Source of the DNA: Thermocoleostomius sinensis A174
Lineage (GTDB): Bacteria > Cyanobacteriota > Cyanobacteriia > Elainellales > Elainellaceae
DNA: 64,000 nucleotides
Direction: 5' to 3'
Assembly (NCBI RefSeq): GCF_026802175.1
Contig: NZ_CP113797.1
Coordinates: 4,317,026-4,381,025 of the forward strand
Below the pieces are notes generated by a model. The model was given only the letters and a program-made list of their open reading frames with translations, made no database searches and was not told where the DNA came from. Shown piece by piece: positions 14,192 to 58,823 of this stretch. A program made the position numbers and the translations under genes. The first letter of the stretch is position 1. Every line of letters starts with the position of its first letter.

Positions 14192-15400
14192 ATGGCGTTT
14201 GAAATTGATTGTGTTAGCTTGATAGGCGGCAAAATTCCATCAGGGGGACGATACCGAGGCGTGGAGACAATTTTCCAACTGATCTTCAGCGAGTTGAAAC
14301 AAACAACTCGTGCATCTGAACAAAATTGTCGGGCCGTTGCCACCCGTTTAGCCGGAGAAGTGAACCGCATCTGTTCAGAGAGCAAGCGGATTCAAGCGTC
14401 TGGAGAGGTGGAAACGTGGTCTACAACGCTGGCACGTCACCGACTGAAGCAATGCCTCAAGTACTATGAACTGGGGTCTCATCGCGGCCGAGTAGAATTA
14501 CATAGCACTCTGAGTGCCGTGGTTTATCGATACATTACTCCTCCCCAGGTACAGTCGAGCTACCAAGCCCGTCTGACCCTGATTGAAGATTTTTTGCAAG
14601 GATTTTACATCGAATCGCTTAGTGCCTTCCGCCGCGAGAACCAGATGGCAGCAGACTATCGCCCTCGCACACTGTTGGAATTGGCGGAATATATGGCTTT
14701 TAGCGAACGCTATGGCAAGCGGCGCATTCCACTGCCGGGTCGTCGCAGCCAGCAATTGATCATTCTGCGGGCGCAAACTTTTTCGCAGCAACAACCCCCC
14801 GAAACAATGGTGGACATTGAACAAGCGGCTGAAGGATCAAGCGGAGAAGCCGATGCCCGCAGTACCGTTCCAATGCCACAAGTGCGGGAACAAATGATGG
14901 CCATGGAACCAGAGTTGCCCGAAGATGCGCTCCGCCATACGGTGATTGCTGAGTTGATGAGCTACTTGGAAGAACGCCAGCAGCAAGATTGCGCTGACTA
15001 TTTTGCTTTGCGGCTGCAAGATCTGCCCGCGAATGAAATTGAGGCCATTCTGGGACTAACCGCTAGACAGCGAGACTATTTGCAGCAACGCTTTAAATAT
15101 CATCTGATTCGATTTTCGCTATCGCACCATTGGGAATTGGTGCATCAGTGGCTAGAGGCCGATCTGGAACGTAATTTTGGGCTAACGCCGCAGCAATGGC
15201 AAGTCTTGCAAGATTGCCTCACGCCGCAGCAACAGGAGCTACTGCAACTTAAACAAAAAGGAATGCCGGATGTATCAATCACACAGGCGATCGGGCTGAC
15301 CCCAACTCAGTTGCAAAAGCAATGGTCAAAATTACTGGAACAAGCTTGGGAAATTCGCAATAATTTTTTTTCCGGGCCCAATCCACAGGTTGATGAATAA
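14192..15400 (+). CDS. hetZ: HetZ, heterocyst differentiation regulator
   Basis: Early regulator of heterocyst differentiation, a direct HetR target in Anabaena. The 402 residues equal the Anabaena HetZ length (about 401), and the N-terminus (GRYRGVETIFQLIFSELKQT) and the central RVELHSTLSAVVYRYITPPQ are features I associate with HetZ. The C-terminal third (residues 245-390) has an LTARQRDYLQQRFKYHLIRF stretch and LTPQQWQVLQ...LTPTQLQKQW repeats resembling sigma-region-4-like HTH units, consistent with DNA binding. The next gene is patU, reproducing the hetZ-patU order of Nostoc/Anabaena. A GAGGGGTTAGA sequence at 14175-14185 resembles half of the HetR target but also serves as the ribosome site. 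Confidence 0.88.
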   Translation: MAFEIDCVSLIGGKIPSGGRYRGVETIFQLIFSELKQTTRASEQNCRAVATRLAGEVNRICSESKRIQASGEVETWSTTLARHRLKQCLKYYELGSHRGRVELHSTLSAVVYRYITPPQVQSSYQARLTLIEDFLQGFYIESLSAFRRENQMAADYRPRTLLELAEYMAFSERYGKRRIPLPGRRSQQLIILRAQTFSQQQPPETMVDIEQAAEGSSGEADARSTVPMPQVREQMMAMEPELPEDALRHTVIAELMSYLEERQQQDCADYFALRLQDLPANEIEAILGLTARQRDYLQQRFKYHLIRFSLSHHWELVHQWLEADLERNFGLTPQQWQVLQDCLTPQQQELLQLKQKGMPDVSITQAIGLTPTQLQKQWSKLLEQAWEIRNNFFSGPNPQVDE

Positions 15401-15492
15401 TTTATAAAGTGTTCATCAAAATTGCTTGAATTCACTTGAAAAATTCGCAACAATTTTATATCCGGATCAGGGGCAGGCATCCATGAATAATG
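15326..15492 (+). repeat. Direct duplication at the hetZ-patU junction (90-base period)
   Basis: 15326-15402 (end of hetZ) and 15416-15492 (start of patU) align without gaps at an offset of exactly 90 bases. I count 52 of 77 identical positions, including AAATTCGCAA (15351 and 15441), TCCGG (15371 and 15461) and ATGAATAA (15393 and 15483). The copy of the hetZ stop region supplies the patU start codon. Confidence 0.75.
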
Positions 15493-16523
15493 ACGCAGAA
15501 GCCATCCAACAGTTGTTTGATTGGCTATTGCAAGAACCAAACCCGGCTATTTCAGCGCCATCAGGGAATCGTGCTAGTCGAAAGGCTAGTCCAGATGAGT
15601 CCGGGACTTCAAGCTTGCAACCTCCATATTTTGATCCTCTCGATTCTGAAGCAGTAGACTTCATGCCTGCTGAGTTAGACGAATCGAGTCTTTCATCTTT
15701 TCAACAACCTTCATCATTAGAATTTGGAGACATACCTGCTGTGCAAGACCGTTTTCAAGCTTTACTAAAGCGTCGACTCCGCGCTGAAATCGAACGCAAT
15801 CCTCCCCGTTTTCCGTGGGAAACTGGCTCGTTTGATTATGAAGTCGAGTATTCTGACCTGCCAACGCCGGAACAAGTTCCAGCGGGTGTATGGGCGGCAC
15901 AATTACAAACGTTGAATTTACCCATCCCGATGCCCGATCGCGTGCTTGTGCAATTGTTGGATCACTGCCGGATGGTCGTGCAGTCTTCGTTGCAAGAAGG
16001 TGCCAAATTGGTACACATTGTCGAGTCGCTGTTTCCAGGACAGTTTCAGTCTCTTAATCAATTAGCGGGGATGGTGCTGTCTGGGCCGTCCCGCTCTGGG
16101 CAAGCGGCGATCGCGCCACCCGCAAACCTGCCTCGTCATTATGATGTAGCAACCCCCATGCAGCAAATGGCCCTGTCGCTGCTGGCGGCTCGCGAAATTC
16201 TAGAATCCATGACGCTGAACGTGTCACCCAGTCAGCCCTATGCGCAACAAGTGTGGCAGACAGCCGTGGGCGAAATCAAAGTCGAGGCCGAGTATCAGCC
16301 TCAAACGCAGCAAATTTGTATTCAAGGCACGTTGCCGCAGGCAGGCAGCCTGTGCTTCAGAAATGGCCCCGATCAATCAACGGCAGTGTGTTCTGAAGCG
16401 GATTGTGTCCGTGTAGCGCTGTCTAACCTGAAGCCAAATCAACCCTATACCTTAGAAGTATTACTGCAAGATAGCGAAGTACCGTTTGTGTTCGCTATTT
16501 GCCCCCTGACCTCTGAAGACTAA
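15483..16523 (+). CDS. patU: PatU, heterocyst pattern-formation protein
   Basis: Second gene of the hetZ-patU operon. PatU influences heterocyst pattern in Anabaena, where it is split into patU5 and patU3; here it is a single intact gene of 346 residues. The start at 15483 (MNNDAEAIQQLFDWLLQEPN) is preferred over an in-frame upstream codon at 15426 because the family starts with this QQLFDWLL segment and a GGGGCAGG purine run precedes it. The N-terminal third is acidic and Ser/Pro rich (likely disordered); a middle block (RLRAEIERNPPRFPWETGSF, YEVEYSD) and a C-terminal beta-rich domain follow. Identification rests on position and remembered motifs. A strong terminator follows at 16602. Confidence 0.82.
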   Translation: MNNDAEAIQQLFDWLLQEPNPAISAPSGNRASRKASPDESGTSSLQPPYFDPLDSEAVDFMPAELDESSLSSFQQPSSLEFGDIPAVQDRFQALLKRRLRAEIERNPPRFPWETGSFDYEVEYSDLPTPEQVPAGVWAAQLQTLNLPIPMPDRVLVQLLDHCRMVVQSSLQEGAKLVHIVESLFPGQFQSLNQLAGMVLSGPSRSGQAAIAPPANLPRHYDVATPMQQMALSLLAAREILESMTLNVSPSQPYAQQVWQTAVGEIKVEAEYQPQTQQICIQGTLPQAGSLCFRNGPDQSTAVCSEADCVRVALSNLKPNQPYTLEVLLQDSEVPFVFAICPLTSED

Positions 16524-17597: not shown

Positions 17598-17754
17598 AGG
17601 TATCTTTGTTCCTGTGTTGTTTAGGCTTCAGTTCTACAGCAATGGGGAGAGGATGCCTGCGGCGGTGCCCCTATAACGGTAAACGAATTAAATTATTTCC
17701 TCATGGTAAACTCCCTTCAGAAATATTGTTGTGGTGTATGAGAAGTGATTGACC

Positions 17755-18480
17755 ATGTGTTTATATAAGCAAACTTTAAACAGACTTAAACTAGGGCTGG
17801 TATTGGTGATGATCGGTCCATTGACAACAACCGCTGCTTTGGCAAATACAGAGGTAGCACCTTCCATTGAAATTACCCAAACCTCGCCTACTCCCGCACA
17901 GCCAACCGCCCCAACGAGTCCAGATGCTGCTGCCGAACGAGTTGTCAACACTGGACTCGTTGAACAAGTGGACTATATCAACGCTTGTCGCCGCACCAAT
18001 CGATCGGTGGAGGTGTTTGCCGATACGGCCCTGAGTCCAGTCAATCGAGTTGGCTCATTAGCTGCCAATACCTCAGTCTTTTTGACCGGGGTGCTGGCCC
18101 CTGGGCGGGCCCAAATTGCCCGGCGCGACTCTCCTACTAGCAGTATTACGGTAGTGGGGTGGGTCAATGCGGCCAACTTAACTACTTGTGATGCTCCTGT
18201 GCCCATACGCGCCTGCTATGGCATCAATGTCGATAATTTGTCTGTTCGCAGCGCCCCCAGCAGCACCTCTGCGTTCCGGGGATCGCTCAGGGCAGGATCG
18301 ATCGTCTATGCCACAGCCAATCCGCCAAGAGAACAAGTATCGCCTAACGCACCGCCTGATTTTGGTCGTATTTGGGTAGAAATTTTGCAAGATGGTCAGC
18401 CAGCCTGGATTGCCAGAACTGGACAATCTGGACTAGGCAGCAACGCCACTCGCCTGTCGGATACAGCCTGTAATCCGTAA
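17755..18480 (+). CDS. Secreted protein with SH3-like (SH3b) domains, copy 1
   Basis: A 241-residue exported protein. The start is set at ATG 17755 (an in-frame TTG lies two codons upstream). A signal peptide (LGLVLVMIGPLTTTAALA) is followed by a Pro/Thr linker and two SH3b-type modules: residues about 75-145 (VEVFADTALSPVNRVGSLAA, GWVNAANLTTCDA) and about 150-235 (VDNLSVRSAPSSTSAFRGSL, QPAWIARTGQ). SH3b domains usually bind cell-wall or peptide ligands. Six cysteines (ACRRT, TTCDA, ACYGI, TACNP) could form disulfides. It is a paralogue of the next gene (45 bases downstream), sharing module order and the terminal Cys. Confidence 0.8.
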   Translation: MCLYKQTLNRLKLGLVLVMIGPLTTTAALANTEVAPSIEITQTSPTPAQPTAPTSPDAAAERVVNTGLVEQVDYINACRRTNRSVEVFADTALSPVNRVGSLAANTSVFLTGVLAPGRAQIARRDSPTSSITVVGWVNAANLTTCDAPVPIRACYGINVDNLSVRSAPSSTSAFRGSLRAGSIVYATANPPREQVSPNAPPDFGRIWVEILQDGQPAWIARTGQSGLGSNATRLSDTACNP

Positions 18481-18524
18481 TTCTGATTTCTCTGTTGTTA
18501 GATCGGGCCAAGGAGCGATCGACC

Positions 18525-19247
18525 ATGCATTGGAATGTTTGTCTTAGTAGTAAAATTCGTTCTCAAGGCTTGACCATTGGTTTAGCTGCGATTGGGACTA
18601 TGGTGATCGGGTGGGAGCAACCGGCCGTTGCTAGGGGCGATCAGCACTCACCCACCCATCGCTATGGGGATGAGTACGACTATCACGAGGAGCGCTATGA
18701 GGATAGCGAAGAGGTTTATGGCGATCGCACCTGGCAAACGATCACAGGACTGACCCAGCAATCGAATTTAATTGGCGCGTGTCGCTACAGCCTGAATAGT
18801 TTAGATGTCTATCGAGATGCCGCCCGCACCCAGCGCATTTTGACGATCGTTCCTGATACTGAACTGCGCTTAACAGGGGTCGTTGGCACGGGCGTCGCCG
18901 AAATCTATTCCCCCGCCCTCGGCTGGATCAGCACCGCCACCATTGAAGCGTGTGATGCCATCCCTGCTCCAGAGCCAGCGGCGCAAGCCTGTTACGAAAT
19001 TTTAACCACGGTAACCGTTCGCAGTGGTCCCGATGGCAGTTATCCAGGAATTGGTCAAATTCGCCGAGGCGGCATTGCCTACGCTACTACCAATCCACCC
19101 ACTGTTTCAGTCAGCCGCGATCGCCGCCGATGGATTGAAATCTATTTCCCGCGCCAAGGACAGGGCTGGTTTTCACTCACCGGATCAGGGGGAGCCGGGC
19201 AAAATGCAGTACGGCTGCCAGATGAGCAGTGTGATTGGGAAGGATGA
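18525..19247 (+). CDS. Secreted protein with SH3-like (SH3b) domains, copy 2
   Basis: A 240-residue paralogue of the preceding gene. ATG 18525 is chosen because AAGGAG (18510-18515) lies nine bases upstream. A signal peptide (LTIGLAAIGTMVIGWEQPAVA) is followed by an acidic Tyr/Glu-rich linker (DEYDYHEERYEDSEEVYGDR) absent from copy 1. Two SH3b-type modules follow, again closing with C-terminal Cys (LPDEQCDWEG). The conserved pattern ACRYSLNSLDVYRDAARTQR, GWISTATIEACDA, VTVRSGPDG and YATTNPPTVS parallels copy 1. Its stop overlaps the next start as ATGA, so it is translationally coupled to the decarboxylase gene. Confidence 0.8.
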   Translation: MHWNVCLSSKIRSQGLTIGLAAIGTMVIGWEQPAVARGDQHSPTHRYGDEYDYHEERYEDSEEVYGDRTWQTITGLTQQSNLIGACRYSLNSLDVYRDAARTQRILTIVPDTELRLTGVVGTGVAEIYSPALGWISTATIEACDAIPAPEPAAQACYEILTTVTVRSGPDGSYPGIGQIRRGGIAYATTNPPTVSVSRDRRRWIEIYFPRQGQGWFSLTGSGGAGQNAVRLPDEQCDWEG

Positions 19248-24552: not shown

Positions 24553-25512
24553 TCAGTGGGATCGATCGGCCTGAGCTAGCAGCTTTTGCCAGGCCAGCTT
24601 AGCGGCTCCTACCATACCAGCTTGGTTGCCCAACTCGGCTTTAAGAAGCTGCAAACCAGGACGTGAGCTTGGCAAAACACGGCGCTCGAGTTCGGCTTGC
24701 ACCGCGGGAAAGAAAAATTCGGCGCTGGCACTGACCCCGCCACCAATGATGATGGCCTCTGGTGTCAACACATATACCAAACTCGCTAACCCAGCCCCCA
24801 AGTCTCGACCGTAGCTTTGCCAAAAGGCGATCGCGGCTGCATCTCCAGCCTTGGCCCGTGCCCCTAGTTCCTCTGGTTCTAGTCCAGTGCGGCGTCGAAT
24901 TGCCCGAATGCAAGTATATTGCTCTAGCGATCCTTGATTGCCGCTGTTGCAGTCGGGACCGTCTGGATTGAGGGTAATTAGCCCCAATTCTCCGGCTGAG
25001 CCATCGCGCCCCACAAATAGCTCTCCATTGAGGATCACGGCTCCTCCCACGCCTGTCCCCAACGTCAGTACAATAACATCTCGAAAGGTTCGCCCTGCCC
25101 CCAACCAATATTCCCCCAGCCCAGCACAGTTCGCATCGTTAGCAAGAATCGTGGGGCGTCCAGTTTCAGCTTCCAACCAGTCAGCTAAGGGAATATCCTG
25201 CCAGCCTTCTAGGTTAATCGCAACCCTGGCAATGCGACCTGCGGCATCAGCGGGCCCTGGCGTCCCGACTCCGATCGCCACACAGGTTCCAGCCTGATCT
25301 AGTTGATGAATGGCCTCTACCATGGTGGCTAATACGGCTTCTGGATAGGCAGGTTGGGGAGTAGGAACCGTCAGCGCCTCCAGACAGTGCCCTTTCCAGT
25401 CAAACCGTCCGAGCTTAATGGCACTGCCACCTAAGTCAACTCCGATCACCGCTGCGGAGTGCAAGCGATCGATGTCAAGCTTATCAGTGTCAGGCTTATC
25501 AGTGTCAGGCAT
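24553..25512 (-). CDS. ROK family sugar kinase (glucokinase-like)
   Basis: Cytoplasmic ATP-dependent sugar kinase of the ROK family, most likely glucokinase. It has the phosphate-1 motif IGVDLGGSAIKLGRFD, the catalytic ANDANCAGLGE (Asp), LTLGTGVGGAVILNGELFVG and GSAGELG, and a C-terminal adenosine motif (IIIGGGVSASAEFFFP). The ROK zinc site normally reads CxCGxxGCxE; here the segment is CNSGNQGSLEQY, so zinc ligands are lost. The N-terminal 17 residues carry a DNA-level direct repeat (PDTDKPDTDKLDIDRL), so the true start could be slightly further in. Length 319 is normal. Confidence 0.88.
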   Translation of the reverse strand: MPDTDKPDTDKLDIDRLHSAAVIGVDLGGSAIKLGRFDWKGHCLEALTVPTPQPAYPEAVLATMVEAIHQLDQAGTCVAIGVGTPGPADAAGRIARVAINLEGWQDIPLADWLEAETGRPTILANDANCAGLGEYWLGAGRTFRDVIVLTLGTGVGGAVILNGELFVGRDGSAGELGLITLNPDGPDCNSGNQGSLEQYTCIRAIRRRTGLEPEELGARAKAGDAAAIAFWQSYGRDLGAGLASLVYVLTPEAIIIGGGVSASAEFFFPAVQAELERRVLPSSRPGLQLLKAELGNQAGMVGAAKLAWQKLLAQADRSH

Positions 25513-58749: not shown

Positions 58750-58795
58750 AACAAAGCAAAATTTTCTAAACAAGTTTTCAACGGTTAATAATCAT

Positions 58796-58823
58796 CCATT
58801 ACCCATTACCCATTACCCATTAC
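58796..58823. repeat. Short heptamer tandem repeat
   Basis: CATTACC repeated three times and a fourth CATTACT, between the DUF928 and CHAT-CHASE2 genes. Same kind of repeat as in the groES-groEL gap. Confidence 0.7.

Follow-up and report, generated by a model that had tools for sequence, protein, structure and literature searches.

The hetZ–patU junction of Thermocoleostomius sinensis A174 is duplicated in tandem. The duplication separated two overlapping genes and gave each of them its own copy of the once-common junction. In the ancestral state, the last codons of hetZ, its stop and the patU start would have overlapped in the arrangement TCCGGA-N16-ATGAATAR. The final ca. 77 bases of hetZ would then have been duplicated in tandem, probably in a common ancestor of a small number of related genera. 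The gene hetZ would now use the frame and stop of copy 1, and patU would use the start of copy 2 together with the upstream TCCGGA and a purine-rich stretch, the hetZ frame of copy 2 having decayed. Translation of patU would be uncoupled from hetZ termination, and TCCGGA would be a regulatory site belonging to patU. This account as a whole, from the duplicated junction with one copy for each gene to the uncoupled patU and its regulatory site, is considered quite probable. Its parts differ in strength: the duplication, the overlap in the relatives and the partition in this genome are firmly established by the compared junctions, and a site at TCCGGA through which HetZ controls PatU is plausible. 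Taken alone, the duplication would be a modest finding; the constrained hexamer that it exposed deserves a bench test.

The repeat at the hetZ–patU boundary

The analysed stretch of DNA, called the window, comprises 64,000 nucleotides of contig NZ_CP113797.1, and positions are counted from its first letter. All junction features are on the forward strand. The hetZ gene (14192–15400) codes for 402 amino acids and ends with TAA at 15398–15400. The protein was identified as HetZ by the NCBIfam equivalog NF037963 (heterocyst_HetZ) with 648.2 bits, the cut-off being 550. The downstream ORF, patU (15483–16523, 346 amino acids), starts with an ATG in copy 2, and the N-terminus of its product, MNNDAEAIQQLFDWLLQ, is common to the relatives. 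It had no Pfam or NCBIfam family match at 1e-3, which may reflect the absence of a PatU model in these collections; the name patU thus rests on the position and on the similarity to the downstream ORFs of relatives. The gene order, with a HetZ family gene and patU directly downstream, is that of hetZ and patU5–patU3 in Anabaena PCC 7120, as given in the available text of PMC7377430. Most relatives in the family have an 8-base overlap of the two genes, whereas the stop–start pair does not overlap here: the patU ATG follows 82 bases past the hetZ stop, and the spacer (15401–15482) is mostly decayed hetZ tail. A consensus scan of these 82 bases detected neither a sigma-70-like promoter nor a terminator-like match. 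Other genes of the window include hetR at 476–1375, which precedes hetZ by ca. 13 kb (PF03574 match at G000:C1:4317660-4318106). For patX, the only RG(S/T/A/N)GR motif in a small ORF of the window is in a 36-codon frame. Two adjacent ORFs of 243 and 250 amino acids at 17749–19247 have halves that look alike by eye and are possibly tandem paralogs.

Copy 1 of the repeat (15326–15402) comprises C-terminal hetZ codons, beginning with SKLLEQAWEIRN, and the hetZ stop. Copy 2 (15416–15492) comprises the decayed hetZ frame and the patU start. The copies align without gaps at an offset of 90 with 52 of 77 identical bases, and this recount agrees with the hand count of an earlier note on this DNA, which had proposed a tandem duplication. 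The core of the repeat (15326–15375 and 15416–15465) has 39 identities in 50 positions (78%) and a score of 28 with +1/−1 scoring. Dinucleotide-preserving shuffles of 14900–15900 reached a score of 18 at best (1000 shuffles), and a further 2000 shuffles, confined to the 231 bases from 15290 to 15520, reached 15. Past the core the similarity drops to 13 matches in the last 27 columns; nine of these matches are ATGAATAAT. With offsets from 4 to 299, the hetZ-tail repeat is the top-scoring ungapped repeat of the whole window. The hypothesis of a chance similarity, suggested by 52 identities among 77 positions and by mismatches in half of the last 27 columns, is practically eliminated by the shuffles and by a closer copy in the relative G006, which scores 41 against a letter-shuffle maximum of 14. 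Further short-period repeats, next highest in the offset scan, are located at 25468–25498 and 58778–58816 (offsets 15, 14 and 7). A second short in-frame repeat is present within hetZ at 15182–15247 and codes for LTPQQWQVLQ and LTPQQQELLQ, 36 bases apart.

The offset is a multiple of three, so copy 2 is still readable as decayed hetZ. In the hetZ frame, copy 1 reads SKLLEQAWEIRNNFFSGPNPQVDE followed by the stop; copy 2 reads SKLLEFT, a stop, KIRNNFISGSGAGIHE and another stop. The first of these stops, TGA at 15437–15439, corresponds to a TGG codon (Trp) of copy 1, so the HetZ tail is no longer encoded by copy 2. The hetZ stop context is reused as the patU start, as had been noticed before: ATGAATAA at the end of hetZ (15393–15400) recurs at the start of patU (15483–15490). 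The copy 1 ATGAATAA is located where the relatives begin patU. Here, only a 4-codon ORF (MNNL and a stop) starts at this place, a vestigial ancestral patU start.

The junction in relatives and the origin of the duplication

The family set contains 36 genomes, and a search at the order level gave the same 36. The junction was read in the 35 genomes with an unbroken hetZ ortholog; G014, with hetZ in pieces, was left out. The junction is single-copy in 29 genomes. In 28 of these, ATGAATAR holds the hetZ stop and the patU ATG in an 8-base overlap, as ATGAATAA in 17 and as ATGAATAG in 11 genomes. A long patU frame is open from the overlap ATG in 27 of the 28; in the remaining one, G026, the frame breaks soon after. 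The exception among the 29 is G015 with ATGAAGAATAG and an 11-base overlap, in which the long downstream frame is a different one. Overlapping stop–start junctions with coupled translation are a known type of gene arrangement. The ATGAATAR of the relatives resembles it at the level of letters; A174, by contrast, has two copies of the overlap, one for each gene.

A second junction copy before patU was found in six of the 35 genomes: this genome (G000), G010, G006, G009, G018 and G027. The proposed duplication is thereby borne out by two-copy and one-copy relatives, and the comparison of related junctions places it in a part of the family. In each of the six, the similarity of the spacer to the hetZ tail exceeded 500 plain letter shuffles. 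The distances from the hetZ stop to the patU ATG are 82, 83, 82, 303, 138 and 139 bases.

A protein tree of hetZ was calculated with 34 rows of at least 250 amino acids; G027 and nine other short located rows were omitted. The five duplicated genomes in this tree share one unresolved fork, with G000 beside G010, G009 beside G018, and G006. The five rows held as one clade were not rejected (p-AU 0.27). Two changes are required on the unconstrained tree, a number as low as this being reached by one of 500 label shuffles. A single origin of the duplication is the simpler and the likely reading. The different spacer lengths would allow for more than one duplication event. Several independent duplications of the junction within the family are a less probable alternative, with perhaps a minor share of the likelihood. 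The spacers of three sizes and the two changes on the free tree speak for it, as does G280 (locus L099), where the hetZ tail, by eye, seems to have undergone a small in-frame duplication of its own, with the same outcome. Arguments against it are the clustering of the duplicated rows in the label shuffles, the one clade accepted by the test, a similarity whose starting points in hetZ lie within about 30 bases in the six genomes, and certain copy 2 letters that, by eye, are common between genomes. In G280, the upstream copy has TCCGAA and the downstream copy next to patU has TCCGGA, again by eye.

The earlier note had taken the duplication for the event that created the patU start. In this genome patU does begin in copy 2. 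The single-copy relatives with ATGAATAR and an open patU frame contradict such a creation, unless their patU genes all start further downstream, and make a new start highly improbable. Since unduplicated relatives have the overlap ATG, the patU start predates the duplication.

Division of labour between the copies

In duplication-degeneration-complementation, a duplication is followed by a split of labour between the copies. The junction is alike in that each copy retains the half of one gene here. It differs in that the unit is a junction of ca. 77 bases and not a gene, and in that the relatives lack a complete partition. The duplicated genomes can be regarded as a natural experiment, in which the letters of the HetZ tail are told apart from the letters of patU; elsewhere these are identical letters.

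A consensus of the 29 single-copy family genomes served as the reference for scoring both copies of the six duplicated genomes. For the hetZ core, copy 1 has 141 of 162 consensus letters and copy 2 has 117 of 162 (Fisher p 0.0014, a descriptive value that ignores ancestry). The continuation into patU shows the opposite pattern, with 42 of 42 consensus letters in copy 2 versus six of 42 in copy 1. The letters of TCCGGA are kept in both, 36 of 36 in copy 2 and 35 of 36 in copy 1. The sole loss is in copy 1 of this genome, TCCGGG at 15371–15376 with an altered last base; the other five duplicated genomes are intact in copy 1. The persistence of TCCGGA in copy 1 of five of the six genomes means that there was no mere transfer of the hexamer to copy 2. 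In the 16-base stretch from TCCGGA to the ATG, both copies retain the consensus about equally well (62 of 96 in copy 1, 65 of 96 in copy 2; p 0.76, likewise descriptive and with ancestry ignored).

A fixing of translational signals had also been suggested for the duplication. This is in line with the predicted pairing to the 16S tail in two genomes, where copy 2 has a better Shine-Dalgarno-like pairing than the weakly pairing copy 1: −3.7 and −7.3 kcal/mol in this genome and −3.3 and −5.7 kcal/mol in G010. Only these two have clearly lost the pairing in copy 1. Both copies pair in the remaining four genomes: copy 2 is better in G027 (−5.8 and −8.6 kcal/mol), the copies are equal in G006 (−5.8 and −5.8 kcal/mol) and about equal in G018 (−5.8 and −6.0 kcal/mol), and copy 1 is better in G009 (−7.1 and −5.8 kcal/mol). 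The predicted averages are −6.9 kcal/mol for single-copy relatives and −3.8 kcal/mol for random hetZ stretches. Based on the pattern of pairing and conservation, this genome and G010 show a clear split between the copies, and the other duplicated genomes show a partial one or none.

The TCCGGA hexamer and its possible functions

The TCCGGA of copy 2 is located at 15461–15466, 22 bases before the patU ATG. Of 388 genomes in a class-wide search, 177 had a close hetZ match, and 151 of these are not members of the family. Junctions were read in 85 of the 151 and in the 35 family genomes; the resulting 120 junctions represent 19 family groups. All but two of them, those of G291 and G043, contain TCCGGA (118 of 120). 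Eighty-eight of the 118 sites lie within the hetZ coding sequence, usually as Ser-Gly codons, and 87 of these 88 have an ATG at 22 bases. The codon usage indicates that more than the amino acids is maintained. The 25 single-copy family genomes compared have 116 conserved hetZ columns with four- or six-fold degenerate codons. Just three of these columns show a single codon throughout, and the adjacent TCC and GGA account for two of the three. Both are invariant in 25 of 25 genomes; the median share of the modal codon in comparable columns is 0.45. To judge by these alignments, TCCGGA is under strong constraint at the nucleotide level.

The hexamer is also maintained where hetZ does not code for it. 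In 30 genomes, a list selected for presence of the hexamer, the TCCGGA nearest to patU is outside the hetZ coding sequence, because hetZ stops earlier or the junction is duplicated. Its distance to the hetZ stop is 2 to 281 bases. The spacing to the start is narrow in these 30: ATG at 22 bases in 26, ATG or GTG at 21 bases in three (GTG in G146) and ACG at 22 bases in G199. In four of the 26 genomes with ATG at 22 bases, all of family f16, patU seems to start later, at 41 or 42 bases. The hetZ frame itself lacks TCCGGA in 27 genomes, including this one. Twenty-five of these have the hexamer before patU, the two exceptions being the aforementioned G291 and G043. TCCGGA is kept past an earlier hetZ stop in five named orthologs (L060, L061, L074, L065 and L069). 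The L069 protein is a HetZ equivalog, and the hexamer is 139 bases past its stop and 22 bases before a patU-like start. Nine HetZ-related paralogs had no TCCGGA between 80 bases before and 150 bases after the stop (nine of nine). They are closest to the HetZ-related NF037964, seven above and two (L067 and L068) below the cut-off. The sequence of L058 ends before the junction.

A tentative interpretation is that TCCGGA-N16-ATGAATAR forms a near-invariant bipartite site by which HetZ, or another regulator reading DIF1, controls its antagonist patU, and that it is kept for the sake of patU. Such a site would be written in the last codons of hetZ and would persist under a shortening of hetZ, a shift of the patU start and a duplication. 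The HetZ tail past WEIRN would then be conserved for patU rather than for HetZ. If true, the 3′ end of hetZ would harbour a HetZ–PatU feedback loop in many families of cyanobacteria. TCCGGA-N16-ATGAA had three matches in this genome versus one for the reversed control, hence no sign of a genome-wide class, and a search of a plasmid collection gave no match.

The hexamer at 15461–15466 is identical to DIF1 of HetZ-dependent promoters in Anabaena (PMC7377430). According to the available text of this paper, DIF1 promoters require HetZ, PatU3 binds HetZ, and a promoter within hetZ is suspected for patU5–patU3. In the accessible part of PMC6133370, DIF1 is followed by a spacer of 17 bases and then by an extended −10 region rich in AT; the DIF1 search of that paper permitted one mismatch. 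TCCGGA, 17 bases and an AT-rich stretch are likewise the common elements of the DIF1/DIF+ motif of heterocyst-specific promoters in the available sections of PMC7377430, PMC6133370 and PMC4192349. TCCGGA at the junction may thus be a HetZ-dependent DIF1-type −35 promoter element for patU or for the 3′ part of patU; this function is possible but doubtful. It is supported by the identical hexamer together with the HetZ requirement, the PatU3–HetZ binding and the suspected internal promoter, and by the layout: 17 bases after TCCGGA follows TGAATAA, which parallels PMC6133370 as a match of sequence only, the −10 region being compared by description and not with an exact consensus. Another supporting feature was found in 30 genomes of the families f16, f25, f7 and f45, in which an ATG 41 or 42 bases past TCCGGA is out of frame with the ATG at 22 bases. 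GAA is the last hetZ codon in all 30, and where the codon before it encodes Asp, it is GAT in 25 of 26 cases; these counts ignore ancestry.

The position of the hexamer is a difficulty for a promoter. DIF1 is here 22 bases before a start codon and at most junctions inside the upstream gene, and transcription expected to start about 35 bases past TCCGGA would begin inside patU, so full-length PatU could not be made from such a transcript. The absence of a sigma-70-like site in the spacer also speaks against it. The upstream regions of hetR offer no help. At 28 of 30 hetR loci a start was recognised (with under 1 kb of upstream sequence at two of these loci), and the exact hexamer is absent within 1 kb in 25 of the 28, including this genome; the other three have it at −908, −611 and −499. 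In family f32, with a recognised start at 29 of 30 loci, exact TCCGGA is present within 1.3 kb in seven of 29, at −720 to −1083 and at no fixed place. With the exact hexamer mostly missing upstream of hetR, no DIF1 regulon is visible at hetR in the family, and DIF1 upstream of hetR was discarded as regulon support. The available text of PMC7377430 does not place DIF1 at the hetZ–patU junction. A TCCGGA at this junction is also unmentioned in the accessible parts of PMC4192349, PMC7761841, PMC10287535 and PMC11298460; older work on hetZ–patU, PatX or start sites may mention it.

A slightly less probable reading sees TCCGGA as a translation signal of patU, that is, as part of an extended ribosome-binding region or a hairpin. 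The nearly fixed spacing between TCCGGA and ATG at a varying distance to the hetZ stop is in agreement with this, as is a G-rich stretch between TCCGGA and ATG in many genomes. The hexamer is, however, located 16 bases upstream of the start and away from the Shine-Dalgarno stretch. In the four f16 genomes it is kept 22 bases before the old ATG, although patU seemingly starts at 41 or 42 bases and hetZ does not code through the site. RNAalifold predicted no common structure for 100 sequences; column shuffles also gave 0, which makes this result uninformative.

A variant of the junction was observed at four f32 loci (L148, L149, L152 and L153). The patU start context is ATGAATGG, hetZ ends with HEW and the stop, and TCCGGA is kept. 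The long downstream frame starts at least 175 bases past the hetZ stop, resembling a split or shortened patU.
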